The notes under the pieces were generated by a model, which worked only from the letters and a program-made list of their open reading frames with translations, did not search any database and was not told the DNA's origin. This document shows, one piece after another, positions 41,692 through 59,719 of a DNA stretch of 64,000 nucleotides (position 1 is the stretch's first letter; each line of letters opens with the position of its first letter). Origin of the DNA: Funiculus sociatus GB2-C1. Lineage in GTDB: Bacteria > Cyanobacteriota > Cyanobacteriia > Cyanobacteriales > FACHB-T130. Where the stretch lies: positions 62,001-126,000 of the forward strand of contig NZ_JAMPKJ010000001.1 in NCBI RefSeq assembly GCF_039962115.1, written 5' to 3'. The translations under genes and the position numbers were made by a program.

Positions 41692-41720
41692 ATTCCTAAT
41701 AGCAATTAGCTATTAGGAAT
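41692..41720. terminator. Hairpin between convergent c-di-GMP genes
   Basis: A perfect 12-bp stem ATTCCTAATAGC/GCTATTAGGAAT with a 5-base loop lies within the 25-bp gap between the two convergent stop codons. It overlaps the last codons of the minus-strand gene, so it probably serves both directions. Confidence 0.6.
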
Positions 41721-43485
41721 TAGCAATAACAACTTTATTTCGTCCGTGTCGTTTGGCTTCGTAGAGTGCTTTGTCTGCGGCTTCATTGAGTTGCGTCGCA
41801 TCAACCACACTGGGAAAAACAGCAACACCACAGCTAAAAGTGACGGAAAATTCAGCCCCTTCAGACTGTTGCCGAACTTTGGCAAAGCCTTCCCGGATGC
41901 GATTGAGCACCTTGACTGCTGTTAGACCATCTGTATGCGGCAAGATGATAGCAAATTCTTCACCGCCGTAACGACCAGTAATATCAGTTTTACGCAAACG
42001 CTGCTGCAATAGACGGGAGAGACTTTTCAAAACGCGATCGCCTGTCAAATGCCCATAGGTATCATTAACTGACTTAAAATCATCAATATCAATCATGGCA
42101 AAGGCGACTGTGGTATTTTCCCGGCTAGCCCGTTGCACTTCAATACTTAATTGCTCTTTGATAGTCGTATGATTAAGTAGCCCCGTCAAACTATCGCGCA
42201 CCATCACAGAACGTAAAAGACGCGATCGCTGCACTCGCGGCATCACCGACGCCACGAGATGGTGTGGCAAAATTGGCTTAGTCAAAAAATCGTCCCCGCC
42301 TAGCTGAATCGCCGTCAGCTGCTTATTAAAATCAGTCTCTACCGAGAGAAACACAATCGGAATCCCCATATAAGCAGGTTGCTGACGGATCACCGATGCC
42401 AATTCCAAGCCATCGCAACCCGGCATATACATATCCATCAAAATCAAATCCGGTCTAAACTCAATCAAAGGCTGCATCACCTGCAAAGGATCAGCGATCG
42501 CTACCGTCATCATCCCCGCCTGCTCTAAAGTTAAGCTATAGAAAGTAGCCAAAGACGCATCATCGTCAACAATTAAAATTCGATACGGTTCTGGGGTTTG
42601 CGGTGCCGTCAGCGAATCCAAAGCATCAATCAACTCTCCGATATTAATCGGCTTAGGGAAATATGCCTTCCCACCTGCCCTCACTGCCTGCAAACGCGCT
42701 GTCAGATCGTTTCTGCAAGAGATAAATACAACTGGCAAAGGTTGTTCGCGCCCTTTCTGGATTTGGGTGATAGTTTTCGGGCCTGCCAAATTGTCTTCAG
42801 GGAACACCACATCCATGATGACTGCTGCTGGGGGTGTTTGAGCGATCGCGTCCTGAAGTTCAACAAACTCGTTAAAGGCGCGAACATCATAACCAAAACA
42901 ACCGATTTGCAACACTAAATCCTGTGACAAAAGTGGATCGTCTTCAACCAGAAAAATCAGCCGATTGTCTGACTCCGGTAGGGGAGGAAGTGTCAGCGGC
43001 AGGTTTACCGACAATTCTTGAGTGGACAGTAAACAAATTTCACTCGCCGCGTGTTTCAATACCCCTAGCAGCACCAAAATTTGTGCTTGCTGTTCCGAAG
43101 TTGGCAAATCCCCACATTCCAGCATCGCTTTGAAAACAAGTTCCAATGTTCGGGCGGCATTGCCTAACGTTAGAAAGCCAAATGTAGCGCCCGATCCAGC
43201 CAGACGGTGTGTTAAGTTGTGCAGCGTTACCAAAAGTGAGGAAGCTTCGGAGAGGGGCAGAGGCGGTGAGGCGGTGATGGGGTGATGAGGTGAAAAGAGG
43301 AATTTAGTATTATCTTTTCCCACTCTCCCACTCTCCCCCTCCTCCACTGCGATACTCTTTTCCAAACTTGCAAGCAGCTGATTCCACATAGCTTCAATCT
43401 GCTCAACTCGACTTGGTAGTTGCTGCGTGTAAGCAATACGTAAGGCGTTTAGTTGTTCTTGTGGATTTTTCACAGAATTAAACAT
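41713..43485 (-). CDS. Hpt-REC-REC-GGDEF diguanylate cyclase
   Basis: The 590-residue protein has an Hpt domain (about 1-155, His93 in LTHRLAGSGATF), two receivers (about 178-300 and 305-425; Asp in VIMDVVFP and LILMDMYMPG) and a GGDEF domain (about 430-590) with the intact signature RYGGEEFAIILP and DIDDFKSVNDTYGH. It is PleD-like and should make c-di-GMP when phosphorylated. Between Hpt helices a 35-residue low-complexity insert (about 45-80) derives from spacer-type DNA (43255-43350). It is the third gene after the hybrid kinase and a CheY-like protein, overlapping the latter by 8 bp. Confidence 0.9.
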   Translation of the reverse strand: MFNSVKNPQEQLNALRIAYTQQLPSRVEQIEAMWNQLLASLEKSIAVEEGESGRVGKDNTKFLFSPHHPITASPPLPLSEASSLLVTLHNLTHRLAGSGATFGFLTLGNAARTLELVFKAMLECGDLPTSEQQAQILVLLGVLKHAASEICLLSTQELSVNLPLTLPPLPESDNRLIFLVEDDPLLSQDLVLQIGCFGYDVRAFNEFVELQDAIAQTPPAAVIMDVVFPEDNLAGPKTITQIQKGREQPLPVVFISCRNDLTARLQAVRAGGKAYFPKPINIGELIDALDSLTAPQTPEPYRILIVDDDASLATFYSLTLEQAGMMTVAIADPLQVMQPLIEFRPDLILMDMYMPGCDGLELASVIRQQPAYMGIPIVFLSVETDFNKQLTAIQLGGDDFLTKPILPHHLVASVMPRVQRSRLLRSVMVRDSLTGLLNHTTIKEQLSIEVQRASRENTTVAFAMIDIDDFKSVNDTYGHLTGDRVLKSLSRLLQQRLRKTDITGRYGGEEFAIILPHTDGLTAVKVLNRIREGFAKVRQQSEGAEFSVTFSCGVAVFPSVVDATQLNEAADKALYEAKRHGRNKVVIANS

Positions 43486-43870
43486 GGTACTGAGACCACA
43501 AGCGATTAAGAGTTGCAGAAAGAGTCATCGGGTCAAACGGCTTTGCAATTACATCCAAAACGCCGAGTTGTTTATAGGAAGCTACTTCGTGAGTTTGAAC
43601 TTTGGCAGTCAAAAAAATCACAGGAGTAGTTAAAGTTTCTCTTAGTTCGCGCAGAGCCTTTAGCGTACTAATACCGTCCATACCCGGCATCATCACATCA
43701 AGCAGAATCAAATCTGGGGCAAAAGTTGGCGCGGCTTGAATTGCTTCACTGCCAGAACTACATATTTGCACAGTAAAACCGCCGACAGCCTGCAAACCCA
43801 AGCTGGCAACAGTTTGGATATCTGGGTCATCTTCCACAAACAAAATCCGGTTTAGAGGTGGGGTAGACAA
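43478..43870 (-). CDS. CheY-like single-domain response regulator
   Basis: A 130-residue lone receiver with acidic pocket (FVEDDPD), phospho-Asp58 (LILLDVMMPG), Thr in TAK and Lys in AKPFD. It ends 8 bp inside the start of the Hpt-REC-REC-GGDEF gene and follows the big hybrid kinase by 128 bp. It probably acts as a phosphate shuttle between that kinase and the Hpt protein, or as a sink (inference). Confidence 0.9.
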   Translation of the reverse strand: MSTPPLNRILFVEDDPDIQTVASLGLQAVGGFTVQICSSGSEAIQAAPTFAPDLILLDVMMPGMDGISTLKALRELRETLTTPVIFLTAKVQTHEVASYKQLGVLDVIAKPFDPMTLSATLNRLWSQYHV

Positions 43871-43998: not shown

Positions 43999-46900
43999 TT
44001 ATTTAAGGGTATTTATCGAGTCACTGCGCCCAATTAAGGATTTGATGGTATCCAGCAGTTGCTGATTTGAGGTGCGGGATTTTACGAGTGCCGCAGCCAC
44101 ATGATTCGCGGCTTCAATACCAACTGTATTGGCAGAGAAAACCACTGCTGGAATTGGGACGCGAGCCTGATTGTTTAGGTAAGGTAGCAACTCCAGACCA
44201 GAACCATCAGGTAAACTTAGGTCTAGAATAACCAGGTCGTAAGTATTTGTCCGTAGCTTGTGTTTTGCCTCCTGAAGATTCTTAGCTGAGTCAATTTCGG
44301 CTAGGGTCTGCAAAATTTTTGAGACGACTTGGGTTAAATCCGGATCGTCCTCTACGTACAAAATTTGTAGCTGGGTGCCAGTTTGTTGTCGCACTGCTTG
44401 CCGGACTGCTGCCATCAATCGCTGTTGATCGATTGGTTTATCCAGCCAGTCTATCACCGCCAAGCCGCCGCCGTTGAATTCCTGCCGCCCTTGCTGCGCC
44501 TTGGCAGAAACCACAACAATTGGCAGGCTGTGGGTGTTTTGCGCCTCCCGCAACTCGCGGATCAATGAAATACCGTCTTGACCGGGTAATGCCAGATCCA
44601 CTGTCATTGCTGCATAGCGGTTTTGGCCCAGTAGCTGCTTGGCTTGTGCTGCACTATAAGCGATATCTGCGCTCAAACCCTCTTGCTTTAGCATTAGCCA
44701 GAGCAATTGGGCAATATCCGGGTCGTCTTCACACACTAAGATGCGGAGGCTGTCAGATGAGTTTGAGCTGGATACAATTGGCACAAGTGCATCCTGCCAT
44801 TCTGGTAAGTCAAAATAGAAGGTGCTGCCGACATTGGTAGTGGTGGTAAAGCCAATTTGTCCGCCGAGTTTTTCGACAATCGCTTTGCAAATGCTCAAAC
44901 CCAAGCCAGTTCCGCCCTTTTGACGGGTATCTGAGGAATCAGCTTGGGCAAACTTCTTAAAGATCCGGGAACGAAATTCTTCGGGGATGCCCGTACCTTG
45001 GTCGGTGATGGCAACGCGAATGAAGGAGGAAGAAGGCAGGAGGCAATAGGTAGGATAAATATTATCAGTTGCCAATAAGTCTGGACTTCTATCTTCTGGG
45101 TTTAAGCGGGAGACACAGACTTTGACTTGGCCATTGGGGGGAGAGAATTTGGCGGCGTTGGAGAGCAGGTTAGTGATCACCTGCATCAAGCGATCGCGAT
45201 CTACATTCACCATAGCATCCGTTAGTTGCGGCTCCAACACCAACTGCACGCCAAACTGTTCGCTATAGCCACGATTCACGTCTATTGCCTGCTGCACTAA
45301 TGGCATCAGCTCCAGCGGCGTAAGATGGAAATCCATTTTACCGGATTCAATCTTTTCGATATCCAAAATGTCATTGATCAGCAGGATCAGACGTTCGCTA
45401 TTTTTATAAGCAATGTCTACCAAGGCTTTCGCCTGTGGGGGAATTTCACCTGCCACGCCGCCACTAATTAAACTCAAAGAACCGCGAACTGAAGTTAGCG
45501 GCGTTCGCAATTCATGGCTAACAATTGAGACAAATTCGTTTTTCAATCGCTCTACCTCCTTGCGCTCAGTAATATCGCGCACAATTGCCAGCACTTCATC
45601 CGGGCCATTGACTACAACTCTAGCCTCATAAGTCTCAATCTTTTTGCCTTTAGGCATTTGATATTCAAACACTTGTGCTTTGTTGGTGGAAAGAGCGATC
45701 GCGCTATAGTGTAAAGCAGCTTGAGCTACACTCATGGGCAAAACATCATAAATATTTTTGCCAACAACAGCATCAGCACTCATCTCCATAGGATCGTTCT
45801 TAGCGGCTTTGAAATCTAGAAAAATGCCCTCTTTGTTCATGCGATACATCGCATCTGGAATAGCGTCTAGAAGGGCGCGGGTTTTCGCCTCGCTTTCGCG
45901 TAACACTTCGCTTTGGCGCAAGGCTTCCTCAGCGGCTTTGCGTTCAGTAATGTCCTTCATAAAGCAGTGATGTCCGATAAAACGCCGTTGCGAATCGTAA
46001 GCACAGATCATCACTAATTGCTTATAAAAAATAGAGCCGTCTTTACGCACACCCCTGGCTTCAGCTTCTACCTTGCCATCTTTGAGCATTTGTTCATAGG
46101 CAGCTATCATCTTTTCTACATCTTCAGGATGTACAGTTAAGGGCCATTCCATACCAATCATTTCTTCTGGTTGGTATCCAGCAGCGCTGGCGTAGGCTCG
46201 GTTGACAGCCAGGTAGCGCCCTTGCGTGTCTAAGCGCGAGATCCCTTCAACGGCATTTTCCAGGGCAGATCCTAAATCGCGTAATTCTGCCTCAGCAGCT
46301 TTGCGCTCAGTGATATCAAAAATCGCCCCATCAAGGCGAATTAATTCTCCTTCCTTATTAAGGATACCCTGACCTTTTTCATAAACCCATCTGACAGTTT
46401 CATCAGCTCGAATAACCCGATACTCGATAATGTAAGGCTGTTTTGCTGACACACCTTCTAAAATAGTTTTCTCCACCATCGCCACGTCTTCGGGATAGAT
46501 AATGCTGGCAAAGGTGCGTACTTGATTGTTAATAAAGTCACTAGCCGGATAGTCAGAAATCCCGGCGATCGCATCACTGATAAACTCCATTGTCCAGTTA
46601 GCATCACAGGCGCAGCGGTAAACAGCACCAGGAATATTAGCAACTAGGGTTCGGAATCTTTCTTCCCTTTCCTGTATAGATGCGTTTAACTGTATCTGTA
46701 CTGTCTCGGCTTGCTTGCGCTCGTTGATATCGTGGAAATAAACTGATAAACCATCGGCATAGGGATAAGTTCGCACCTGATACCAGGTGTTTAATGGTGA
46801 ATAAAATTCCTCAAACTCAACCGTGACTTGTTCGGTAGCAGCTTTGTGATACTGCGAGTAGAACTTGGAGTTAACAGCCTCTGGAAATTCATCCCATATA

Positions 46901-49611
46901 TTTTTGCCAATTAACTCATCCTTGGTTCTCAACAAAAGCTGCTCGGCTCGTGAATTTATGTAGGTGAACCGCCACTCCCGATCTAAGGAAAGAAAGGCAT
47001 CGTTGATGCTTTCTAATATCTTGTTGATTTGCTGGTTAGACTTGTGCAAATCCTCTTCAGCTTGTTTACGTCTTGTGATATCTCGGAAGTACCAAATTCT
47101 GCCATAATTGTCTCCTTCTGGGGAAAGCACCGCTGATGAGTAACGGTCAAAAACGCGCTCATCATTTAAGGAAATTTCATCGCGGCTAGATTCAGTTGGA
47201 TGAGCATATAAATACTCGACTTTGGCAATAAACTCTTGTGGCTGCACCAGGGTTGAGAGTACATAGCCTAGCAGTTGTCTGTCGTCCCCAGACTTCATCA
47301 CCTCGTCGGGGATTTGCCACAATTCTTTGAAGCGACGATTGTAGGAGGCGACTTTTCTGTTCTCGTCTATCACCAAAATGCCATCGAGGGCTGCTTCTTG
47401 CTGCGCCTTCAGAAGTGAATTAGTGCGTCGCAAGCTTTCTTGAGCTTGCTGGCGTTCGGTGATGTCGGTAGAGATACCGCAGACTGCATAAGGGACACCA
47501 GTAGCATCCTGTAGGGGAAACTTGACTGAAAGGTAGCTGTGTAAAACACCTTCGACAGGTGCGACTTCTTCCAACTCTATCGGAGTTCCAGATGCGATTA
47601 CTTGCTGGTCGGTGATATGAAAAGCGTCAGCTACTTCTTTGGGAAAAATTTCGTGGTTGGTTTTGCCGACTATCTGCTCTCGGTCGAGGTGGAATAGGGT
47701 TTGGAATAGACGGTTGACCAAAATAAATCGTCCTTCCCTATCCTTGACGTAGATCATGGCGGTGGAGTTATCTAAAATTGCTTGTAGTCGCTCCTCGCTA
47801 ACGCGCAATGCTGTTTCGGCGGATTGAGTACGAGCGAGTTCAGCTTGCAGCTGCTCGAAAAGGTTAGCTTGCTGAATAGCGATCGCTAGTTGTACGGAAA
47901 GCTGCTTGAGAAATTGTACTTCCCAGTTTTGCCATTGTCTGGTTCCATGACAGTGATGGACAATTAGCAGTCCCCATAATTTGGAGTTTGAAGGTTTAAC
48001 AGTTGCAAGGTTGGAAGTAGAACCATTTTCCCACCTTCCCTGATGCCAACGAGAATCCCTGCTCAATGTGGCAACGCTTTCTTGGAAAATCGGCACTACC
48101 AGATTGGCTCTGACCTGAAACCGCTCTAGCAATTGAATATGAGGCTGTTCTAAACCCGCTGTGTAAATATCTTCAATAGCTTGAATCTCACCTGTGAGGT
48201 ACGGGGTGGCAAGAGGATCACTAAAATTGGATAAGCTGGTGCGATCGCATGACTGGTAATTTTCCTGAATATTGATGCCTAATGTTGATGAAACCCCGAT
48301 ACCCAGCGATTCCACAACTACAGTACCACTCCCATCTGGCTCAAAGCGGTAAATAGCTGCTCGGTCGGCATGGAGAGCTTGTCGAACTTCCGCTACAGTG
48401 GTGTTGAGGACATCTTCTAGTTTCAAGGATTGGCGAATTCGCTCTTGCATTGCTCCTAAAAGCAATTCCCGTTGCAAGAGTTGCCGTAAGGCTGCTTCAG
48501 CTTCCACCCGGTAGGTGATGTCTGTTTGGATACCAATAAAGTTTGTCAGTTTGCCTTGGGGATTGCGTACCGGGGAAATCCGGAGTTCGTTCCAGAAAAG
48601 GGTGCCATCTTTGCGATAATTCCGCAAGACTGCACTACACTCTCTGCCCTCAGCAATTGCCATTCTAAGTTGAGCGATCGCTAGTTGATTTGTGTCTGTC
48701 CCCTGCAAGAAGCGGCAATTGATACCAATGACTTCAGCCGCAGCATATCCAGTCATCTGCTCAAAACGGGGATTGACATAAATAATTGGGTTGTCTGGCT
48801 GGGTGGTGTCGCTGATGGCGATGCCATTGCTACTAGATGCGATCGCTCTCTCCAGCAATCGTAGGGATTCTTCTTGTTGTTTGCGCTCGGTGATGTCCTG
48901 CGTCACTTTCGAGAAGCCGCGCAGATTTCCCTCCCTGTCGTGCAAAGCTGTAATCACTACGTTTGCCCAAAACCGCGTACCATCCTTACGCACCCGCCAG
49001 CCTTCCTTTTCGCACCGACCAAGTTTTGCTGCTAGTTCTAAATTTTGCTCCGGCTTTCCCAGCTCAATCTCTTCAGGCGGATAAAAGTAGGAAAAATGCT
49101 GTCCGACAATTTCTTCTAACTGATACCCTTTGATGCGTTCGGCTCCGGCGTTCCAGCTGACAACGTGTCCATTGGTATCCAGCTTAATAATTGCATAGTC
49201 TTTTACGCCTTCGACTAGCAACTGGAAGTTTTGCTCTCTCTGTCTGAGCGCCGATTTTGCCCATTTGCGCGAGCTGAGGATTTCTGTAAATATAATGATG
49301 CCGCCGATTTCACCTGCACTTGTCGTCCACGGTTGGGCTTCCCACTTTACCCAGTCCCCAGTCCCATCCAAACGCCTGATAAATTCTTCATCACCCTTTT
49401 CGATGGTTAAGAGTTGGTCGTTCCAACTTTCAGGAACTTCCTTGAACGTCTCATAGAGCGATCGCTGGCTGATATCCCCGCTTAGTCTAAAATCTGTCCG
49501 CCAGCGATCGCTACAAAGCAGGTAACGCATTTCGTGGTCGAACATGGCGATTGCAGCAGGCGATCGCTGGATAAATTTTTGCAGTAGCTCTTGGTTATCT
49601 ATGTGATTCAT
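43999..49611 (-). CDS. LOV/PAS/GAF hybrid histidine kinase with two receivers
   Basis: The 1870-residue soluble protein has nine PAS-type domains. The third (about 255-375) is LOV-like: GINCRFLQG with Cys299, NYRKDGTLFWN and FIGIQTDIT. A GAF (about 380-585) follows. It resembles a cyanobacteriochrome (IEDIYTAGL, LLERFQVRANLVVPI) but has Pro490-His491 where Cys-His would hold the bilin. It also has a 30-residue insert. Six more PAS domains (about 600-1350) lead to HisKA (His1366 in [12 protein letters not shown]), HATPase_c with intact boxes, and two REC domains (TVDLALPG, VILDLSLPD). It heads an operon with a CheY-like and an Hpt-REC-REC-GGDEF protein, so the predicted output is c-di-GMP. Confidence 0.9.
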   Translation of the reverse strand: MNHIDNQELLQKFIQRSPAAIAMFDHEMRYLLCSDRWRTDFRLSGDISQRSLYETFKEVPESWNDQLLTIEKGDEEFIRRLDGTGDWVKWEAQPWTTSAGEIGGIIIFTEILSSRKWAKSALRQREQNFQLLVEGVKDYAIIKLDTNGHVVSWNAGAERIKGYQLEEIVGQHFSYFYPPEEIELGKPEQNLELAAKLGRCEKEGWRVRKDGTRFWANVVITALHDREGNLRGFSKVTQDITERKQQEESLRLLERAIASSSNGIAISDTTQPDNPIIYVNPRFEQMTGYAAAEVIGINCRFLQGTDTNQLAIAQLRMAIAEGRECSAVLRNYRKDGTLFWNELRISPVRNPQGKLTNFIGIQTDITYRVEAEAALRQLLQRELLLGAMQERIRQSLKLEDVLNTTVAEVRQALHADRAAIYRFEPDGSGTVVVESLGIGVSSTLGINIQENYQSCDRTSLSNFSDPLATPYLTGEIQAIEDIYTAGLEQPHIQLLERFQVRANLVVPIFQESVATLSRDSRWHQGRWENGSTSNLATVKPSNSKLWGLLIVHHCHGTRQWQNWEVQFLKQLSVQLAIAIQQANLFEQLQAELARTQSAETALRVSEERLQAILDNSTAMIYVKDREGRFILVNRLFQTLFHLDREQIVGKTNHEIFPKEVADAFHITDQQVIASGTPIELEEVAPVEGVLHSYLSVKFPLQDATGVPYAVCGISTDITERQQAQESLRRTNSLLKAQQEAALDGILVIDENRKVASYNRRFKELWQIPDEVMKSGDDRQLLGYVLSTLVQPQEFIAKVEYLYAHPTESSRDEISLNDERVFDRYSSAVLSPEGDNYGRIWYFRDITRRKQAEEDLHKSNQQINKILESINDAFLSLDREWRFTYINSRAEQLLLRTKDELIGKNIWDEFPEAVNSKFYSQYHKAATEQVTVEFEEFYSPLNTWYQVRTYPYADGLSVYFHDINERKQAETVQIQLNASIQEREERFRTLVANIPGAVYRCACDANWTMEFISDAIAGISDYPASDFINNQVRTFASIIYPEDVAMVEKTILEGVSAKQPYIIEYRVIRADETVRWVYEKGQGILNKEGELIRLDGAIFDITERKAAEAELRDLGSALENAVEGISRLDTQGRYLAVNRAYASAAGYQPEEMIGMEWPLTVHPEDVEKMIAAYEQMLKDGKVEAEARGVRKDGSIFYKQLVMICAYDSQRRFIGHHCFMKDITERKAAEEALRQSEVLRESEAKTRALLDAIPDAMYRMNKEGIFLDFKAAKNDPMEMSADAVVGKNIYDVLPMSVAQAALHYSAIALSTNKAQVFEYQMPKGKKIETYEARVVVNGPDEVLAIVRDITERKEVERLKNEFVSIVSHELRTPLTSVRGSLSLISGGVAGEIPPQAKALVDIAYKNSERLILLINDILDIEKIESGKMDFHLTPLELMPLVQQAIDVNRGYSEQFGVQLVLEPQLTDAMVNVDRDRLMQVITNLLSNAAKFSPPNGQVKVCVSRLNPEDRSPDLLATDNIYPTYCLLPSSSFIRVAITDQGTGIPEEFRSRIFKKFAQADSSDTRQKGGTGLGLSICKAIVEKLGGQIGFTTTTNVGSTFYFDLPEWQDALVPIVSSSNSSDSLRILVCEDDPDIAQLLWLMLKQEGLSADIAYSAAQAKQLLGQNRYAAMTVDLALPGQDGISLIRELREAQNTHSLPIVVVSAKAQQGRQEFNGGGLAVIDWLDKPIDQQRLMAAVRQAVRQQTGTQLQILYVEDDPDLTQVVSKILQTLAEIDSAKNLQEAKHKLRTNTYDLVILDLSLPDGSGLELLPYLNNQARVPIPAVVFSANTVGIEAANHVAAALVKSRTSNQQLLDTIKSLIGRSDSINTLK

Positions 49612-51462: not shown

Positions 51463-52671
51463 TTATTCCGATTTAACGCAGTTAAGCATTCGCAAAGTGG
51501 CGGCGGCGGCGTAGTTGCGACGAGTGGCAGAGTTTGGCTCAAACTTGCTGCCAGTTTCATTTACTGGGGAGGCAACATTACAATAAGAAGACATTTGGTT
51601 AACCAGTGATGCTGCCCAGTGTTTTTCTGTGTCTGAGAAGGTTTTAGCTGAGTTCTTGACAGCAAGCTCTGTGGGGAGTCCGCGCATATTTTTCCCAAAT
51701 TCCGCAGCACGTCGCAATACTGCTAATAGTTCGGCTCTGGTGACTGGTTGGGTGGGTTTAAATGAGCCGTCTTGATAGCCACTGACAATTTTGTTATCCC
51801 GCGCCCATTGAATTTTAGCAGCACTCCAGCGCGTAGCATCGACATCGGGATATGGTCGGGATGATGCTTGGGTGGGAATTGTGACGTTAGCACTCGGTAG
51901 CTTGGTTAATGATTCCAATACCATAGATACCAGTTGTTCTCTAGTTAAAGCGACTTGGGGACGGAAGGTATTGTCTTCTTTGAACCCGGCGACGAATCCA
52001 AGGGATACTGCTTGTTCAATTTCTCTAGCATAGACATCTGTGGCGATGTCTCGGAAGGAAGAGGTTCCGCTTGGAGGTGTGGCAATATCGCCAAATCCGG
52101 GGGGTGGTGCTTGGTCGCTAGTAAGATAGACGTGACCTAGTGTTTTACCGTTGAAGCTTCTTTTGGCAAACCGCCAAGCCGGATCGAGATTGATTTTCAC
52201 GAAGCCGTTGTTGATGCCGTTGGCTCTACCGATTTCGATGACCGGAGCGTTGCGATCGCTCAAATTTTTCCCAACTAGCACAAAGTCATTACCGCTTTTG
52301 ACGATGTTGAAGCTGTACTTCAGTCCCAAATCTGTACCCGCCATCCGGATAGAATAGCCGTTGCTGTCCGTACTGCGTCCGCAAATGCCACTGAAGTCAA
52401 AGTTCACAAGTAGCGGATCTACTATGACGGGGCTGGCTCCGTTTTCGCTCCAGCACTGCTGCTTGTCTGATATCTGTTCCAAAATCAATAGTTGATGACT
52501 ATTTGTGCCATAAGGTGCGGCTACGGCAATAAATTTAGATTGTTCAACTTCTTTTTGATCAAAAGTGGCAGCGTGGCTGGGGTTTACGACATTTAGTGTT
52601 GAGACTACGGTGGCTATGGCTGCAATTGACCACCGAAGTAGACGCTTGGAGGAGCTTGAAGTCAAAGTCAT
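51463..52671 (-). CDS. DUF3747 plus SLH-domain secreted protein
   Basis: The 402-residue precursor has a Sec signal peptide (about residues 1-34, ending SHAATF), a DUF3747 domain (about 35-195, with IAVAAPYGTNSHQLLILEQ and the paired cysteines around CWSE and FSGICGR) and three SLH units (about 205-395; FRDIATDVYAREIEQAV, YPDVDATRWSAAKIQWA, FSDTEKHWAASLV). Such proteins sit on the cell surface or periplasmic wall. In contrast to the other SLH protein in this window, it has a proper leader. Single gene. Confidence 0.9.
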   Translation of the reverse strand: MTLTSSSSKRLLRWSIAAIATVVSTLNVVNPSHAATFDQKEVEQSKFIAVAAPYGTNSHQLLILEQISDKQQCWSENGASPVIVDPLLVNFDFSGICGRSTDSNGYSIRMAGTDLGLKYSFNIVKSGNDFVLVGKNLSDRNAPVIEIGRANGINNGFVKINLDPAWRFAKRSFNGKTLGHVYLTSDQAPPPGFGDIATPPSGTSSFRDIATDVYAREIEQAVSLGFVAGFKEDNTFRPQVALTREQLVSMVLESLTKLPSANVTIPTQASSRPYPDVDATRWSAAKIQWARDNKIVSGYQDGSFKPTQPVTRAELLAVLRRAAEFGKNMRGLPTELAVKNSAKTFSDTEKHWAASLVNQMSSYCNVASPVNETGSKFEPNSATRRNYAAAATLRMLNCVKSE

Positions 52672-52781: not shown

Positions 52782-55253
52782 CTAAATGCCTTGTCGTTCT
52801 AGGGTTGCCAAGGGTAAGGTGAACCAGAAAGTTGTCCCCCTATTTGGGCGACTTGTTACGCCAATTTGTCCACCGTGAGCAGTAATAATTTGCCGACACA
52901 GATGTAGTTTTAAACCAGTGCCTGTTGAGCAGCGAGATTGGGGATCGCGCACGTAGAGATCGAATAAGCGATCGCACTCTAGCTGACTCATCCCTACACC
53001 GTCATCTTCCAGGGTGCAGCGGATTGTCTGATGCTCTACTGTAGCTTTGAGAGTCAGATTCAGTCCCGGTGGGTTGTGTTTTAAGGTGGTAGTGAAGAGG
53101 GTTTCTAAAACTCGCTGTAGCTGAGTTGGATCTGCCATAACTAATGGTAAATCCCAATTTACCAAATTGGTCAGAGTTGCTTGGTTTTGCGCCAGCAGTG
53201 GTTCTAAGTCTATGAGAATTGCTGGTAAAATTGTATTTAACTGGACAAAATTTCGCTGAATTACAACTCCCTGAACTTCCGTAGAATTGCTTTCAAGCAA
53301 GGAGTTAATCATACATAGTTGGCGCTCGTTGCCTTGAATCATTCGTTCTACAATAGAGCGAGAAATGGTTAATTTCTCTTCCGGCGAACAAAGCAAGTTT
53401 TTGAAAACCATTACAGTTCCTTGGACAGATGTGCGGAGGTCGTGAGAAATTGTATGTAAAACAACATCTTTAATGCGGTTTAGCTCTTGCAATTCCTGCA
53501 TTTTTTGCTGTAACTGATTAGTGCGTTCTTCTACTTGGCGTTCCAGATTAGTATTGAGGGTTTGTACTTGTTGGAAAAGAGAAGATTGCTGAATAGCGAT
53601 CGCTACCTGAATTCCCAGTTGATCTATCAAATCAATTTCAAATTGCTGCCATTCACGAGGTGCAGAGCATTGATTGGCAATCAATAACCCAAACAGTTTT
53701 TCACCTAGCATAATCGGTACACCAATACCAGCTTTTACTTGACAGCGGTGATAGTATTCTGCTAAAAAGGGAGATTTGTTTATTGGGGTTGTATCGTTGA
53801 TAACTCGAATGGAATTGCCACCAAAAATTTCCTTAACTTCCTTAAAAGCCATGTCATCCGTAACCCATCCCAAAATTGAATTAAAATTGGGATCTACAGA
53901 TTCGGCTACGGCTCGTGCGTGTCCATCTTCATCAAAGTAACTGATGAAGACGCGATCAGCTTGCAAAAATTGTCGGACTTCCGCTACAGTAGTGTTCAGA
54001 ATTTCATTTAGATCCAGCGATCGCCTAATTTTTAAAGCAATCTCATAAAGTAAGCGATCGCGCTCGGCTGCGACTCTAACCAGAGCTTCAGCAGCTTTGC
54101 GCTCAGTTATATCAGTAACTACAGCAAGCACGGATGACTCGCCGTTAATATTAACAAGTTCTGCTGACAAGAGGGCTGCTACAACTTCGCCACACTTTTT
54201 GCGAAACTGACATTCTAGGTTGTGAACTGCACCTTGTTCTAGCAACATTTGTTGCATTTTTATACGTTCTTCTGGATTTACCCAGGCATTTATCTCAGCT
54301 ACAGTATGCCCAATTACCTCTTCCCGAAGATAACCACTAAGCTCCAGAAAGTTATCATTAACCTCCAGATAGCGTCCCTCTTTAAATGTAGTAATACTGA
54401 TACAATCAGGACTATGACGAAAGGCTATAGAAAATTTTTCTTCTGAGAGCAAAAGCGCTTCTTCCGACGCTTTCCGCTCGGTAATATCTATCAGCAAACC
54501 ATTCCAAAATATATCGCCATTCGCCTGCACAATAGGGCGGGTAGCGCCTTGCAACCATTTCAACTTACCTGATTTGGTAATTACCCGACCTTCCCAAATC
54601 CACGGCTGTAAGTTATCCGCCGAATCAATCAGCGATTGTTCATAAGATTCCCGATCTTCAGGGTGAACCAGATTCCTAAACAAAATTAGGTTAGAGCGAG
54701 CTGAATGGGACGTTAATTCTAATAATTCTTCACAGCTTGCATGGGCAAATAGTAACCATCGAGAGTTATCGTTACGCTCTATAAGTTTAAAAATTATTCC
54801 GAGCTTGTTGGCGGCAATTTTGTTTAATTCTGGGACAGATTGGGAGATTGAGGCTTCTGTTGGGAGAAAATCCCAAGAATGAGCAACATTTTGTGACTGA
54901 AAATCTGTATTAATTTGTGTTGATGGCACACTGATATCTAGCCCGGTTAGCCCATCATTAAAACACCGCGCCCCCAGTCCCTCTAGACAAGCGGAGAGGG
55001 GAGCCGGAGGCGGGGTGAGGTTGTTCGCAGATGGTTCATGAAGCTGATTTGGTATAGCTATTTCCTCAATACTTTGCCCAGCCAAAGTTAGGAGGTGTTT
55101 AAGTTCTTCAAAAGCAGCTTCATTTCGGCAACAATTCCGTAAAGCTTGTAAATACTCTAAATTAGAAATCATATTTTCTCGATAGCATTTAATGAGTGAC
55201 AGATGAGCAGCAAGTGGCGCAGTTTCATTAGTCACAACTTTTTTTTTAAACAT
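52782..55253 (-). CDS. PAS-GAF histidine kinase homologue with degraded ATP site
   Basis: From the ATG at 55253 (AGGA eight bases upstream) the protein has 823 residues: an N-terminal helical part with a low-complexity Pro-rich insert, two PAS domains (about 160-275 and 285-400), a GAF (about 405-570), a coiled coil and a kinase core. His604 is kept, but the box reads HDLRTS instead of HDLRTP. In the ATPase domain both N-box asparagines are replaced (Thr718, Thr722 where the paralogue at 55442 has Asn), and the last G box is GTGLKL. It is the downstream paralogue of the dCache kinase and probably cannot bind ATP normally, so it may act as a phosphoacceptor or decoy (inference). Confidence 0.85.
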   Translation of the reverse strand: MFKKKVVTNETAPLAAHLSLIKCYRENMISNLEYLQALRNCCRNEAAFEELKHLLTLAGQSIEEIAIPNQLHEPSANNLTPPPAPLSACLEGLGARCFNDGLTGLDISVPSTQINTDFQSQNVAHSWDFLPTEASISQSVPELNKIAANKLGIIFKLIERNDNSRWLLFAHASCEELLELTSHSARSNLILFRNLVHPEDRESYEQSLIDSADNLQPWIWEGRVITKSGKLKWLQGATRPIVQANGDIFWNGLLIDITERKASEEALLLSEEKFSIAFRHSPDCISITTFKEGRYLEVNDNFLELSGYLREEVIGHTVAEINAWVNPEERIKMQQMLLEQGAVHNLECQFRKKCGEVVAALLSAELVNINGESSVLAVVTDITERKAAEALVRVAAERDRLLYEIALKIRRSLDLNEILNTTVAEVRQFLQADRVFISYFDEDGHARAVAESVDPNFNSILGWVTDDMAFKEVKEIFGGNSIRVINDTTPINKSPFLAEYYHRCQVKAGIGVPIMLGEKLFGLLIANQCSAPREWQQFEIDLIDQLGIQVAIAIQQSSLFQQVQTLNTNLERQVEERTNQLQQKMQELQELNRIKDVVLHTISHDLRTSVQGTVMVFKNLLCSPEEKLTISRSIVERMIQGNERQLCMINSLLESNSTEVQGVVIQRNFVQLNTILPAILIDLEPLLAQNQATLTNLVNWDLPLVMADPTQLQRVLETLFTTTLKHNPPGLNLTLKATVEHQTIRCTLEDDGVGMSQLECDRLFDLYVRDPQSRCSTGTGLKLHLCRQIITAHGGQIGVTSRPNRGTTFWFTLPLATLERQGI

Positions 55254-55441
55254 GGAATTTTCCTGCACGTACACTTCTACTCTTCCAAGTTAAGAGAAGA
55301 GGTCGCGATCGCGCTTCGTGCTGCTGACTCACCCGATTGGGTGATTTTTAGCCAGTCACTCATAACTTGCAAGGCCAAAGCATTTGCGTATAACAATTTA
55401 CAACTTACTGATAATCTATCTGCGCGAATGCTTCGCCCCTA

Positions 55442-58400
55442 CTAATTACCTACTTCTTCAGTAGGAGACGCGAACAGGGGTAATGTGAACCAAAAAGTTG
55501 CTCCGGCTCCGGGGGCGCTAATAGCACCAATTTGTCCGCCATGAGCTGTGATGATTTGCCGACAAAGATATAACCCTAGACCGATGCCAGTTGAACGGGC
55601 GCGGGAACCGCGAACATAACGCTCGAACAGGTGATCGCACGCTTCGGGGTTCATTCCCACGCCGTTATCCGCAACGGTGCAATGAACCATTTCTTCCTCA
55701 ACTGTGGCTTGCAGGGTGAGAATAAGTCCGGGCGGGTTATGATTTAGGGCATTGGTGAGCAGATTTTCAAATACTCGTCTCAGCTGCAATGGATCTGCTG
55801 TCACGCCTGGTAAAGAAGCTGGAACTAAGTTGTTCAGGGTAGCTTGATTTTTCAGGAGCAGTGGTTCCATATCTTGAGCGATCGCTGAAGTTAGCTGACC
55901 CAGTTGTACTAGCTGGTAATTGAGGATAACGCCTCGAACTTCGCTGGAGTGGGTTTCGAGGAGAGAGTTAATCAAACTCAGTTGGCGATCGCTACTCTGG
56001 ATCATTCGCTCTAAAATTGAGCGAGAAATCGGGATTGTTTCCCCTGATTTATTTAATAAATTATTTACCACTAAAGACATACCCATAATCGGGGTACGCA
56101 AATCGTGAGAAACTGCGTGTAAAAACTCATCTTTGAGTTCATTTAGCTCTTTGAGTTCCTGCATTTTTTGAGAAAGTTGAGCAGTACGTTCCTCCACTTT
56201 ACGTTCTAACCGAGCATTTAAGTCCTGTACCTCTTGGTAGAGTTTTGCTTGTTTAATAGCTATAGTCACTTGCGTTCCCAATGATGATAGCAAATCAATT
56301 TCAGATTGCTGCCAATCACGCGGTGACGTACACTGATCGACTATCAACAGTCCCCAAGGTTCCTCATCCAGAATAATTGGTACAGCCAAGAAAGCTCTAA
56401 TTTGATAATTATTGAAATCCTCTGCAACAACTGAAGAAATCTCTATTTGAGAGGTATCTTTGACAACATGGACAGATTTATTTTCAAAAACTTTCCTAAT
56501 TGCTTGATAATGTTCTTCATTTTTGGGAGTCCATTCTTGAATAGGTCGCCACGGCGGAATAACCGACTCAGCAACAACCTGAAAATCGTCATAGATACGA
56601 CTGATAAAAACCCGATCTGCTGAAAGAAAATTTCGGACTTCGCTGACAGTAGTATCTAAAATTTGCTGGAGATCGAGGGATTGACGAATCCGCAGAGCAA
56701 TGACACCAAGTAAGCGATCGCGTTCTAAAGCGTCGCGTAGTTGCGCGTCCGCAGCTTTGCGTTCGGTGATGTCGTTAACAACAGCCAACACGCATAATTC
56801 ATCGCCAAAATTAATAATTTCTGCTGAGAGTAATCCTATAGCCACCTCACCAGACTTTTTGCGAAACTCACATTCTAAATTGCGAATATTTCCCGCCTCT
56901 TGCAACATATCTATCATCTTAAGACGGTCTTCCGGATTGTTCCATATATTTAATTCAATGGCGGTATGTCCAATTAGCTCTTCACGAGTGTAACCAGTCG
57001 TTCGTAAAAGACTTTCATTAATTTCTACATAACGTCCATCTTTGATCGTACTGATAGCAATCGAATCCGGACTAGAAAGAAAAGCTTTAGAAAACTTTTC
57101 TTCTGAAAGTAACAACGCCTCTTCCGCACGTTTACGTTCAGTAATGTCAATTCCGGTGCCAATCATATACTTAATCGAACTATCAGCATCGAGTAGAACA
57201 GTAGTTGACCAACTAATTAGCCGCCGCGTTCCATCCCTTGTAGTCCAATAATTATCATAGGTTTTGGGAAACTTACCAGTGTGCAACTGATCGAAAATAT
57301 CTTTAATAGATTTTGCTTCCTCTGGAATTAGAAAAATATCCCAAAAAGGCTGATCTTTTACCTCTGCAAACGAGTAATTAGTTATTTCTTCACAAGCTGT
57401 ATTAAACCGAATAATTCGCCCTTGTCTATCAACCACAATCATCAAAGCACCCGCTGTATCCAAAATTGCGGAAACGAAATTTCGCTCCTTACGCAACTCT
57501 TTAATCAGTCCGCGCAGCTGAGCTGTCATTTCATTAAAAGTTGTTGCTAATACTCCCATTTCGTTGTGGCGGTTAACTGTCACCTGGGTATCCAAATTTC
57601 CCGCGCTAATTTTGGCTGCTGCCTGCGTCAAACGCTGCAAAGGTGATACAATTTGCCGAGAGAAGAACCAACCTAACTCAGCCGCAAGCAGCATCGCCAC
57701 GCTCAAGGCTATACCCATCACGAAAAGCATTCTCTGCACAGGAGCGTAAGCTTCAGCCGTAGGAAGTTCTACCACCACCTTCCAGCGTACACTGCGAATG
57801 GGCGCGATCGCACCCACCACTTCCACCCCTTTCAACCCCTGATAATTCTTTAGAGTTTTCGCACCCTTCAATTTTGTTAATTTTTTGATAAAAGTGTAGT
57901 TTGAAATGTCGTGTAACTTATAATTATTAGGTGCTATCCCTTTTTCAGCAATTAAATACTTGCGGTTATCAATTACATAAGTGTAACCAGTTTTACCAAC
58001 ATCAATTTGAGATACAATAAACCAGAGAAAGTTTAAATTAATCCGCGCCATCAAAACGCCATCTACTAGATCCTGCTGGTTGCGAATTGGTAACGCTAAG
58101 GTAACAACTGGAAGTTTTGTAGCAGCGTCCATTCTAACTGGGCTAACAATGTCTTCTTTTTGTTTAAAAGCTCGCCCAAATGAGCGGTAATCATCCGGGT
58201 GAGAGAATTTTGAATCATCATAAGGAGAATACTCAGAAACAACCTCACCATTTTTATTGAAAATCGCCACTTTTTCATAAGCACTATTATGGCGCGTCAG
58301 CGCTTCCAACAAAGTTTGCTGAATTTCCGGTGAAAAATCCGTCAAGCCTTGCACTCTAGCAAGGTAACTCAGTTTACGCTGCAAGTCATCCAAGTAAGCA

Positions 58401-58654
58401 TTAATCTCGCCAGCAGCAACCAAACTTCGCTCTTGCTGGGCGACTTCTACCTGTTCTATTTGAGCCTGGAAGCTCAAAGAAATTAACATTCCTGATGTGA
58501 TTAATAAAGCTAAAACTACTAGCAGTACCAAACCATATCTAAGTTGATTGGCAATAGAAAACACACCAGAACGTGGCGAACCTCTATCCATTCTTAGAGG
58601 CAATTCATGACTTGCCCCTAGCCGTGAACCACTACCTATAGTTCGTTGGTTCAT
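55442..58654 (-). CDS. dCache-HAMP-PAS-GAF sensor histidine kinase
   Basis: The 1070-residue kinase starts at the ATG at 58654, four bases after a strong AAAGGAGG; a GTG nine codons upstream is not needed. Two membrane helices (about residues 38-62 and 315-337) enclose a periplasmic dCache sensor (containing YDDSKFSHPDDYRSFGRAF and DVGKTGYTYVIDN). HAMP (about 337-390), two PAS (about 395-510 and 520-640), GAF (about 650-815), a coiled coil and an intact kinase core follow (His850 in AVSHDLRTPIMG, NLLTNALNHNP, GIGLGLYLCRQ). A substrate-binding lipoprotein gene lies 63 bp upstream and may feed it a ligand. The next gene is a degraded paralogue. Confidence 0.9.
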   Translation of the reverse strand: MNQRTIGSGSRLGASHELPLRMDRGSPRSGVFSIANQLRYGLVLLVVLALLITSGMLISLSFQAQIEQVEVAQQERSLVAAGEINAYLDDLQRKLSYLARVQGLTDFSPEIQQTLLEALTRHNSAYEKVAIFNKNGEVVSEYSPYDDSKFSHPDDYRSFGRAFKQKEDIVSPVRMDAATKLPVVTLALPIRNQQDLVDGVLMARINLNFLWFIVSQIDVGKTGYTYVIDNRKYLIAEKGIAPNNYKLHDISNYTFIKKLTKLKGAKTLKNYQGLKGVEVVGAIAPIRSVRWKVVVELPTAEAYAPVQRMLFVMGIALSVAMLLAAELGWFFSRQIVSPLQRLTQAAAKISAGNLDTQVTVNRHNEMGVLATTFNEMTAQLRGLIKELRKERNFVSAILDTAGALMIVVDRQGRIIRFNTACEEITNYSFAEVKDQPFWDIFLIPEEAKSIKDIFDQLHTGKFPKTYDNYWTTRDGTRRLISWSTTVLLDADSSIKYMIGTGIDITERKRAEEALLLSEEKFSKAFLSSPDSIAISTIKDGRYVEINESLLRTTGYTREELIGHTAIELNIWNNPEDRLKMIDMLQEAGNIRNLECEFRKKSGEVAIGLLSAEIINFGDELCVLAVVNDITERKAADAQLRDALERDRLLGVIALRIRQSLDLQQILDTTVSEVRNFLSADRVFISRIYDDFQVVAESVIPPWRPIQEWTPKNEEHYQAIRKVFENKSVHVVKDTSQIEISSVVAEDFNNYQIRAFLAVPIILDEEPWGLLIVDQCTSPRDWQQSEIDLLSSLGTQVTIAIKQAKLYQEVQDLNARLERKVEERTAQLSQKMQELKELNELKDEFLHAVSHDLRTPIMGMSLVVNNLLNKSGETIPISRSILERMIQSSDRQLSLINSLLETHSSEVRGVILNYQLVQLGQLTSAIAQDMEPLLLKNQATLNNLVPASLPGVTADPLQLRRVFENLLTNALNHNPPGLILTLQATVEEEMVHCTVADNGVGMNPEACDHLFERYVRGSRARSTGIGLGLYLCRQIITAHGGQIGAISAPGAGATFWFTLPLFASPTEEVGN

Positions 58655-58717
58655 CGTGCCTCCTTTAGAAATCTCTTTCACCCACTAATTCCTTTAAATT
58701 TAAGTAATGGCTAATAA

Positions 58718-59719
58718 CTAATGTGTAGCATCGATTTTTCCAGTAATAATATCTTCCTTCAGGGAGTTTATAAATTCTTCTTGTTCTGGCGTAAGCGAAC
58801 CATAGAAAGGAGTCAAATCTTGGATTTCCTCTTGCAACCCGAATTTATACTGCTTGCCCTCCCAACGCCCTTGCTCTACCAAAGTTGCTCCTTCGAGCAT
58901 TACCATAGGAACCTGCTGCATGGCATTAGTTAAAATTATTTTTGGGGGTGGTTTTTGTTGCTCTGGAAGCCCAGGAATGGCATGATTCCATCTAATAGCA
59001 TAAACCCCTTTATTTTCAGCAACAACTTTTATAACACCTTTATAAGCAGTATCAGCATTGACCGTTATGATATCAACGCCTGCCGCCACTAACTTTTGAG
59101 AAATTCGGCTGGCTTTGTCTGCATCTGTCCAACTTCCCACCCAATCGATGAATACTTCGGCTGAGGGGTTAATTTGCTTGACACCTCGTTCAAATAAGGT
59201 AGCTTCCTCTTCCAAACTTGCATATTTTTGACCGCCAATGTAAGCAACTTTATTAGTTTTTGTTTTCAGGGCTGCTACTACTCCTGTTAAATACCCTAAT
59301 TCCCCAGCCCGAAACGCCAAAGCGCCAAAATTTTTATTGTTGCCAGCATCACTACTCATAACCGCAAATTTATTGCGTGGAAATTTTGCGGATACAGCTT
59401 TAGCTGTTGCGATATATTCCCCACCATGACCGATGATAAAATCAAAACCTTTTTTAGCATATTGACGAAAAAGTTTTTCAGCATCGGCTCCTGGCACACT
59501 GTCAGCATAAGCCACCTCAGCGCCAAGTTCTTTTTCAATTAGCTTTAATCCTTCATAACCTGATTGATTCCAAGCTTTGTCATCCACAGCTCCGGGAAAA
59601 ATCGCCGCTACCTTAAAAGCACCCGGTTTCACTTGGGCGGTTCGTGTAATGTCGCTTGCAGTTGTACCGCAGGCTACGAGCAGCAAGGTTAAAAGCAGAC
59701 AAATAATTTTCTTAGTCAT
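58718..59719 (-). CDS. BMP-family substrate-binding lipoprotein
   Basis: The 333-residue lipoprotein has a signal peptide with lipobox LVAC (Cys17) and a BMP/PBP1-type two-lobe fold (VAAIFPGAVDDKAWNQSGYEG, ADAEKLFRQYAKKGFDFIIGHG, then AFRAGELGYLTGVVAAL). BMP proteins normally bring nucleosides or related ligands to an ABC transporter. No permease or ATPase gene is nearby. Instead the next gene on the strand, 63 bp on, is a dCache sensor kinase, so this protein may present its ligand to the kinase (inference). TAGTCATT-type tandem repeats lie at its start. Confidence 0.9.
   Translation of the reverse strand: MTKKIICLLLTLLLVACGTTASDITRTAQVKPGAFKVAAIFPGAVDDKAWNQSGYEGLKLIEKELGAEVAYADSVPGADAEKLFRQYAKKGFDFIIGHGGEYIATAKAVSAKFPRNKFAVMSSDAGNNKNFGALAFRAGELGYLTGVVAALKTKTNKVAYIGGQKYASLEEEATLFERGVKQINPSAEVFIDWVGSWTDADKASRISQKLVAAGVDIITVNADTAYKGVIKVVAENKGVYAIRWNHAIPGLPEQQKPPPKIILTNAMQQVPMVMLEGATLVEQGRWEGKQYKFGLQEEIQDLTPFYGSLTPEQEEFINSLKEDIITGKIDATH

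Follow-up and report, generated by a model that had tools for sequence, protein, structure and literature searches.

The window analysed here, a stretch of 64,000 nucleotides (G000:C1:62001-126000) in the 6.47-Mb draft genome of Funiculus sociatus GB2-C1, harbours two sensor-kinase genes in tandem on the minus strand, HK1 upstream and HK2 downstream. Their sequences strongly support HK2, hereafter PSK, as a conserved, selectively maintained histidine pseudokinase that belongs to an old clade. PSK is probably a deliberately inactive partner and not a dying gene, because the same broken yet preserved design is found again in scores of cyanobacteria, in most cases with a working kinase next to it. 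Two hallmarks of a pseudokinase were found in PSK, namely a fold that is predicted to be kept while catalytic residues are lost, and maintenance by selection. The protein carries two PAS domains and a GAF domain, followed by a dimerisation and histidine-phosphotransfer (DHp) domain and a catalytic (CA) domain, with the following features.

52782 to 55274, minus strand: PSK (HK2), a soluble PAS-PAS-GAF-DHp-CA pseudokinase of 830 amino acids, with a GTG start and an in-frame ATG at codon 8 (open reading frame, Pfam, clade membership)
54510 to 54752, minus strand: PAS_3 domain of PSK, residues 175-255 (Pfam)
54102 to 54410, minus strand: PAS_9 domain of PSK, residues 289-391, homologous to the second PAS domain of HK1 (Pfam and sequence comparison)
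53592 to 54014, minus strand: GAF domain of PSK, residues 421-561, cyanobacteriochrome-like, without Cys at the chromophore position (Pfam and structure-sequence matches)
53427 to 53444, minus strand: H-box of PSK, H611-D-L-R-T615-S616, with His and Thr retained and Pro changed to Ser (sequence)
53073 to 53105, minus strand: N-box of PSK, E724 to N734, with Thr725 and Thr729 at both Asn positions (sequence)
52992 to 53006, minus strand: G1 box of PSK, D757-D-G-V-G761, intact (sequence)
52905 to 52928, minus strand: G2 box of PSK, STGTGLK789L, with Lys at the invariant Gly position (sequence)
52806 to 53132, minus strand: HATPase_c (CA) domain of PSK, residues 715-823, predicted fold retained (Pfam, structure model)
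55442 to 58681, minus strand: HK1, a dCache-HAMP-PAS-PAS-GAF-HisKA-HATPase_c kinase of 1079 amino acids with all catalytic motifs intact and an in-frame ATG at 58654, codon 10 (open reading frame, Pfam, motif reading)
57767 to 58468, minus strand: dCache_1 sensor domain of HK1 (Pfam)
55952 to 56134, minus strand: HisKA domain of HK1 (Pfam)
55475 to 55795, minus strand: HATPase_c domain of HK1, with intact N, G1 and G2 boxes (Pfam, motif reading)

No Pfam match to dCache, HAMP or the receiver domain Response_reg was detected in PSK. Its HATPase_c domain scores 77 bits, and its HisKA domain falls below Pfam calling at E 0.01. Among the NCBIfam matches listed, only the generic PAS-domain model TIGR00229 passed its cut-off, in PSK and HK1, when these two proteins, the partner kinase of type B and the response regulator described below were compared.

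An earlier note on this DNA had described the two genes as tandem kinases of shared origin, the downstream one with a ruined ATP site. Both open reading frames lie on the minus strand where it placed them, and the kinase cores do share an origin, with 53% identity over HK2 residues 172-823. Its residue claims are right after a shift of seven, since its numbering starts at internal ATGs, which are codon 8 in HK2 and codon 10 in HK1: its His604, Thr718 and Thr722 are His611, Thr725 and Thr729 of the 830-residue GTG frame. The H-box reads HDLRTS in PSK versus HDLRTP in HK1, the Pro being changed to Ser while the His stays, and the N-box reads ETLFTTTLKHN versus ENLLTNALNHN, with Thr in place of both Asn. 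The Gly-rich box that the note had called the third G box, usually named G2, reads GTGLKL versus GIGLGL. "Ruined" holds for the Mg2+ and phosphate contacts but not for the whole site: the G1 box DDGVG is intact, and the damage therefore lies mainly at those contacts.

Compared with active kinases of the HisKA/HATPase_c type, PSK possesses the H-box His within HDxRT/N (H611). It has Thr729 at the second N-box Asn, a Mg2+ ligand that is invariant in 48 active relatives, and GTGLKL where active kinases have GxGLGL, the Gly being present in 48/48 active relatives. The genome of the window encodes 152 HATPase_c matches, and the second N-box Asn is present in 70/70 of those read, which are the upper-ranking ones and not a random draw. 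Chance as the origin of the lesion was rejected, because the Asn is kept at all of these sister places and the lesion recurs clade-wide.

PSK forms one well-supported clade in four families of the order. A profile (A1) built from 30 degenerate cores detected 47 places in 42 of 388 genomes of the order, all scoring at least 376.7 bits, and the next best match scored 355.7 bits; with this gap the profile separates the PSK class. Ten of the 47 copies, in five genomes, belong to the window's own family (f1), one to f21, three to f32 and 33 to f33. In a tree with 33 PSK rows, PSK was one side of a branch with support 100/99, and the same was found with 47 rows after removal of the motif columns (SH-aLRT 99). 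Within the clade, the copy in the window is typical. When a sample of 388 genomes from the class was searched, the N and G2 boxes were normal in all 23 loci fetched from outside the order. A whole-protein search of genome contigs (query P0001) returned one near-identical and four distant loci, and was replaced by searches of whole genomes.

The residue signature was read in 103 copies, namely the 47 and 56 further core stretches that complete those found in the 82 PSK-bearing genomes of f33; all were found with a PSK profile, so clade members whose site is intact may be under-represented. The H-box His and the Thr at +4 (Thr615) are each present in 103/103 copies (47/47 and 56/56), and Asp or Glu follows the His (612) in 99/103 (46/47 and 53/56, with Asn in three of the 56). 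The H-box Pro at +5 is retained in 2/47 and 0/56 copies, the first N-box Asn in 24/47, and the second in 1/103 (1/47 and 0/56). The G2 Gly is found in 0/103 copies, its place being taken by Lys in 97, Arg in three and Gln in three (Lys 43, Gln 3 and Arg 1 among the 47; Lys 54 and Arg 2 among the 56). The Gln copies (G079, G314 and G320 of f33) are all unlinked to the partner gene, although the numbers are small. The single copy with the second Asn, a member of f32 (L081:6505-8283), carries the G2 Lys and the H-box Ser; it may be an intermediate or a reversal, and was retained in all counts. Sixteen of the 41 columns that are invariant in the 48 active kinases are relaxed in PSK, and seven of the sixteen lie within the N, G1 and G2 boxes. 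Only 28 of 249 columns are invariant across the 47 PSK copies; they include H611, R614 and T615.

The near-invariant Lys or Arg in G2 could also belong to an unconventional kinase, in which this residue replaces Mg2+ and the protein still binds, and perhaps uses, nucleotide. The restriction of nearly all copies to these residues at one position would fit such a kinase, as would the G1 box of f1, where 9/10 copies have D757 and 10/10 have G759. Nevertheless, we regard this as very improbable, given the three copies with Gln and the G1 box of the other families, where Gly761 in 11/37 and Asp757 in 28/37 copies argue against a conserved nucleotide site.

PSK is under purifying selection. Whole-gene ratios of nonsynonymous to synonymous substitution (dN/dS, Nei-Gojobori) were 0.12-0.33 in six PSK/PSK comparisons. 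The window PSK, compared across three genomes, gave 0.22-0.33, the PSK of a second pair on contig C67 of the same genome 0.21, and two other pairs 0.19 and 0.12; the range for active partners was 0.11-0.17. The PSK catalytic domain alone gave 0.11-0.44, with few changes in the closest pairs, and in the C67 pair 0.32 versus 0.14 in the active partner. The dead domain is therefore still constrained, less than that of the active partner in the C67 pair. Some long branches and the stepwise loss of motif residues would be expected of simple decay after tandem duplication, but this explanation is hardly credible in view of the dN/dS values, the single old clade in four families, and frames that are open throughout. 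The frame-disrupting changes that the earlier note had named as a sign of decay were looked for in the 47 long copies and the 56 core stretches; all are open, the 56 being free of internal stops, and the note's pseudokinase reading is well supported. For the window gene itself, local decay was rejected on the open frames, the dN/dS values and clade membership.

The PSK genes are paired with active kinase genes. In f1, 10/10 PSK copies adjoin an active paralogue, and six of them follow a BMP/PnrA-like lipoprotein gene and HK1 in the order BMP-HK1-PSK (G000, the window's genome, G001, G003 twice, G004 and G005). The sixth f1 genome, G002, gave no match at E 1e-100. The C67 pair of the window's genome (L016, G000:C67:2000-16000) is its second tandem active/pseudokinase pair, with an active frame of 841 and a degenerate frame of 723 amino acids, and nearby, on the opposite strand, are the genes of a small protein and of a NarL-type regulator, the latter at C67:4258-4929.

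In f33 the partner belongs to a different active clade, type B, with the motifs HDLRNP, NLIxNA and LGLGL and no GAF match. Among 145 f33 genomes, 82 contain PSK and 84 contain type B; 75 have both genes and 54 have neither (Fisher p 2e-22, uncorrected for kinship). G375, an f33 genome with PSK and without partner B, is outside the listed matches of this sample and was excluded from its counts. The two genes lie at most 10 kb apart in 65 of the 75 genomes with both, and in 63 of the 65 they are on the same strand with PSK first. The other 10 genomes have likewise kept both, with the two genes widely separated or on separate contigs. Nine genomes have type B without a detected PSK. The window's genome also encodes a lone 341-residue kinase core of the f33 partner type (L017:3307-4332, G000:C51; HDLRNP, LGLGL), with no match to the PAS and GAF probes and no adjoining PSK within the 8 kb read.

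A response regulator of the NarL type, consisting of REC and GerE domains, adjoins the pairs or active kinases in all five PSK-bearing f1 genomes. In G000, G001, G004 and G005 it is found on the other strand, some 1.3-1.5 kb away from the PSK gene of C67-type pairs, and in G003 near a type A active kinase; in G025 it is encoded 36 bases downstream of the active kinase. Of the 145 f33 genomes, 91 have this regulator, namely 89 of the 91 with PSK or type B and two of the 54 with neither, and 74 have PSK, type B and the regulator together. In the genera g60 and g37, the members among the matches listed have all three (G750 and G768; G079, G273 and G320) or none (G095; G039). The NarL-type regulator is the best lead for the cognate regulator of PSK and its partner, and would by extension be a candidate for the window pair.

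The PSK and HK1 cores were modelled with AlphaFold from alignments of eight rows (window and L011 sequences), and the models had a mean predicted local distance difference test score (pLDDT) of 77.4 and 76.3, respectively, with the ATP-lid stretch poorly defined in both. Foldseek matched the PSK model to DHp-CA structures, among them DivL (4q20, rank 2), HK853, RetS and GacS, and the PSK core is thus predicted to keep the histidine-kinase fold. The GAF domain of PSK is closest to cyanobacteriochrome-type GAF domains among solved structures. In such domains a Cys is related to chromophore attachment; the Cys position of the best match aligns with Phe in PSK. A cyanobacteriochrome photosensor was therefore rejected as a description of PSK, and no chromophore is claimed.

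The kinase regions of RetS and GacS are also among the sequence matches of PSK. Together with the fold matches they would suit a brake, in which PSK is a homo- or heterodimeric phosphatase or phosphate sink that, like RetS, would take phosphate away from the active kinase or its regulator without ATP chemistry. The HD/ExxT motif that this needs is retained, with the acidic residue and the Thr at the frequencies given above. We consider it unlikely, as an H-box His in every copy is stricter than a pure phosphatase should need. The kept CA fold (predicted) despite lost nucleotide contacts is in turn what a non-catalytic allosteric partner or scaffold would show, similar to DivL or RocA, tuning the active kinase by contacts alone, with its own His unphosphorylated; RocA and a CA-frameshift mutant of ChrS work without their His in the cited accounts (PMC7028121, PMC9491836). 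This is quite unlikely for PSK, where H-box His, Arg and Thr are invariant while the neighbouring Pro varies.

The reading that we favour, and hold to be somewhat probable, is that the two proteins form an ancient module, a heterodimer or a phosphorelay, to which the active kinase brings ATP and PSK brings sensors and, probably, a phospho-accepting His. It is preferred because of the single clade, the conserved His611, R614 and T615 with selective loss of the boxes, the predicted histidine-kinase fold of the PSK core with its matches to DivL, RetS and GacS, the purifying selection, the pairing, the co-occurrence with the regulator, and the precedent of FasB/FasC. PSK would be unable to form a normal Mg-ATP site, retaining its DHp domain and its own PAS and GAF sensors, and would act via the active paralogue, which in the window is HK1. 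The two would most likely form a mixed DHp dimer with ATP supplied by the HK1 catalytic domain. His611 may then accept phosphate, strip it, or both, in exchange with a response regulator, probably of the NarL type, and the periplasmic BMP-dCache input of HK1 would be joined with the cytosolic PAS/GAF input of PSK. What was observed of PSK working through an active kinase is gene pairing and co-occurrence. These support the earlier note's view that PSK is kept for its active paralogue; from the sequences, we infer the heterodimer, the direction of phosphotransfer and the phosphoacceptor that the note had proposed. The partner role is likely and the phosphoacceptor role plausible.

Several points weigh against this heterodimer or relay. 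A conserved His need not be used, as RocA and the ChrS mutant illustrate. The pair is not strictly obligate, since seven of the 82 f33 PSK genomes have no detected type B (G346, G730, G752, G756, G771, G782 and G792), five of them from one genus (g137). In f32, no close active paralogue adjoins PSK in two of three loci, and the third reaches the contig end. The family-level counts are phylogenetically non-independent, and the co-occurrence figures stand without a control gene. The dN/dS of the CA domain rests on three to four changes of each kind when the window copy is compared with G003 and G001. The second N-box Asn of L081 means that loss of this Asn may not be ancestral to the clade, and no response regulator gene lies beside the BMP-HK1-PSK trio of the window. 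A comparison of DHp domains found no closer match of PSK to its co-encoded type B than to other partners (f33 PSK: 0.54 with B, 0.58 with the type A active kinases of f1), and therefore gives no support by itself for heterodimer specificity. More tentatively, the whole order might have split a sensor kinase into two co-inherited subunits, one that owns the ATP site and one with the phospho-acceptor, an extra sensor and a Lys (rarely Arg or Gln) plug in the dead ATP site, both feeding one NarL-type regulator. The result would be a three-component system, nearly obligate and stable across divergence at the family level, a possibility that we find doubtful.

Upstream of the pair lies a lipoprotein gene, and the minus-strand gene order is lipoprotein, HK1, PSK.

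58718 to 59719, minus strand: BMP/PnrA-like substrate-binding lipoprotein, directly upstream of HK1 (Pfam; order the same in 6/6 HK1-type operons of f1)

The lipoprotein and HK1 are likely a pair of ligand-binding protein and kinase. The adjacency of such a lipoprotein and a dCache kinase, seen in 6/6 f1 operons, also occurs in G375 (L093), there without an adjoining PSK. The sole NCBIfam match of the lipoprotein, a putative B6 transporter binding protein, is far under the cut-off. About 110 bases downstream of PSK, on the same strand, the window encodes a DUF3747/SLH-domain protein (51463-52671), whose position is kept in G001 and G003. Further on are a hybrid kinase of 1870 amino acids with many PAS domains and two receivers (43999-49611, minus strand) and, after it, two further receiver proteins (41713-43870). 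No RNA features were found in the region at Rfam gathering cut-offs. The promoter and terminator scan, which is weak evidence only, gave promoter-like sites below the shuffled-sequence count and no minus-strand terminator-like site in the HK1-PSK gap.

No description of a cyanobacterial histidine-pseudokinase family was found in the open-licence papers searched. Histidine pseudokinases as such are already known, and PSK is an unusually well replicated case among them: those in the cited papers are single cases, and PSK offers an entire clade that nature has replicated many times, together with a defined residue signature, a partner gene and a candidate regulator. The question why bacteria keep catalytically dead sensor kinases can thus be tested by comparison of genomes in which the partner is retained, unlinked or lost. 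The pairing of BMP-dCache with PAS/GAF sensors is also a candidate way of merging a periplasmic ligand signal with a cytosolic one.

DivL lacks the His, whereas PSK has lost the ATP site and kept its His; the DivL structure 4q20 is titled a tyrosine kinase. As a kinase-like partner, DivL controls another kinase, CckA, in the account given in PMC9491836. The same account describes a CA-frameshift variant of ChrS in C. glutamicum, a kinase-dead paralogue that acts through the active paralogue HrrS and does not need its His (PMC9491836); as described there it is a laboratory mutant, whereas PSK is a natural family. The pseudokinase RocA works via the active sensor kinase CovS, and its predicted phospho-His is dispensable according to the cited part of PMC7028121, in contrast to the His of PSK, which is invariant as far as sequence can tell. 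In Pseudomonas, RetS acts on GacS by heterodimerisation, phosphate siphoning and dephosphorylation, as the cited part of PMC12189002 reports. PSK resembles both in the sequence and fold of the kinase region; however, RetS and GacS appear there as hybrid kinases, whereas PSK has no receiver by Pfam and is distinguished by gene pairing and co-inheritance with its partner. The closest precedent for a transphosphorylated pseudokinase, by analogy, is FasB/FasC of group A Streptococcus. In the sections of PMC12675982 that deal with it, FasC is a proposed pseudokinase whose His matters and receives phosphate from its active partner within a heterodimer, and whose kinase domain is dispensable. Similar to PSK and HK1, FasC and FasB are, in that account, two neighbouring sensor-kinase-like genes, one of them a pseudokinase, with one regulator, transphosphorylation being the feature of FasC. 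The two systems, likened here without sequence comparison, are of unrelated lineages, and the CA domain is conserved in PSK, unlike the dispensable kinase domain of FasC.

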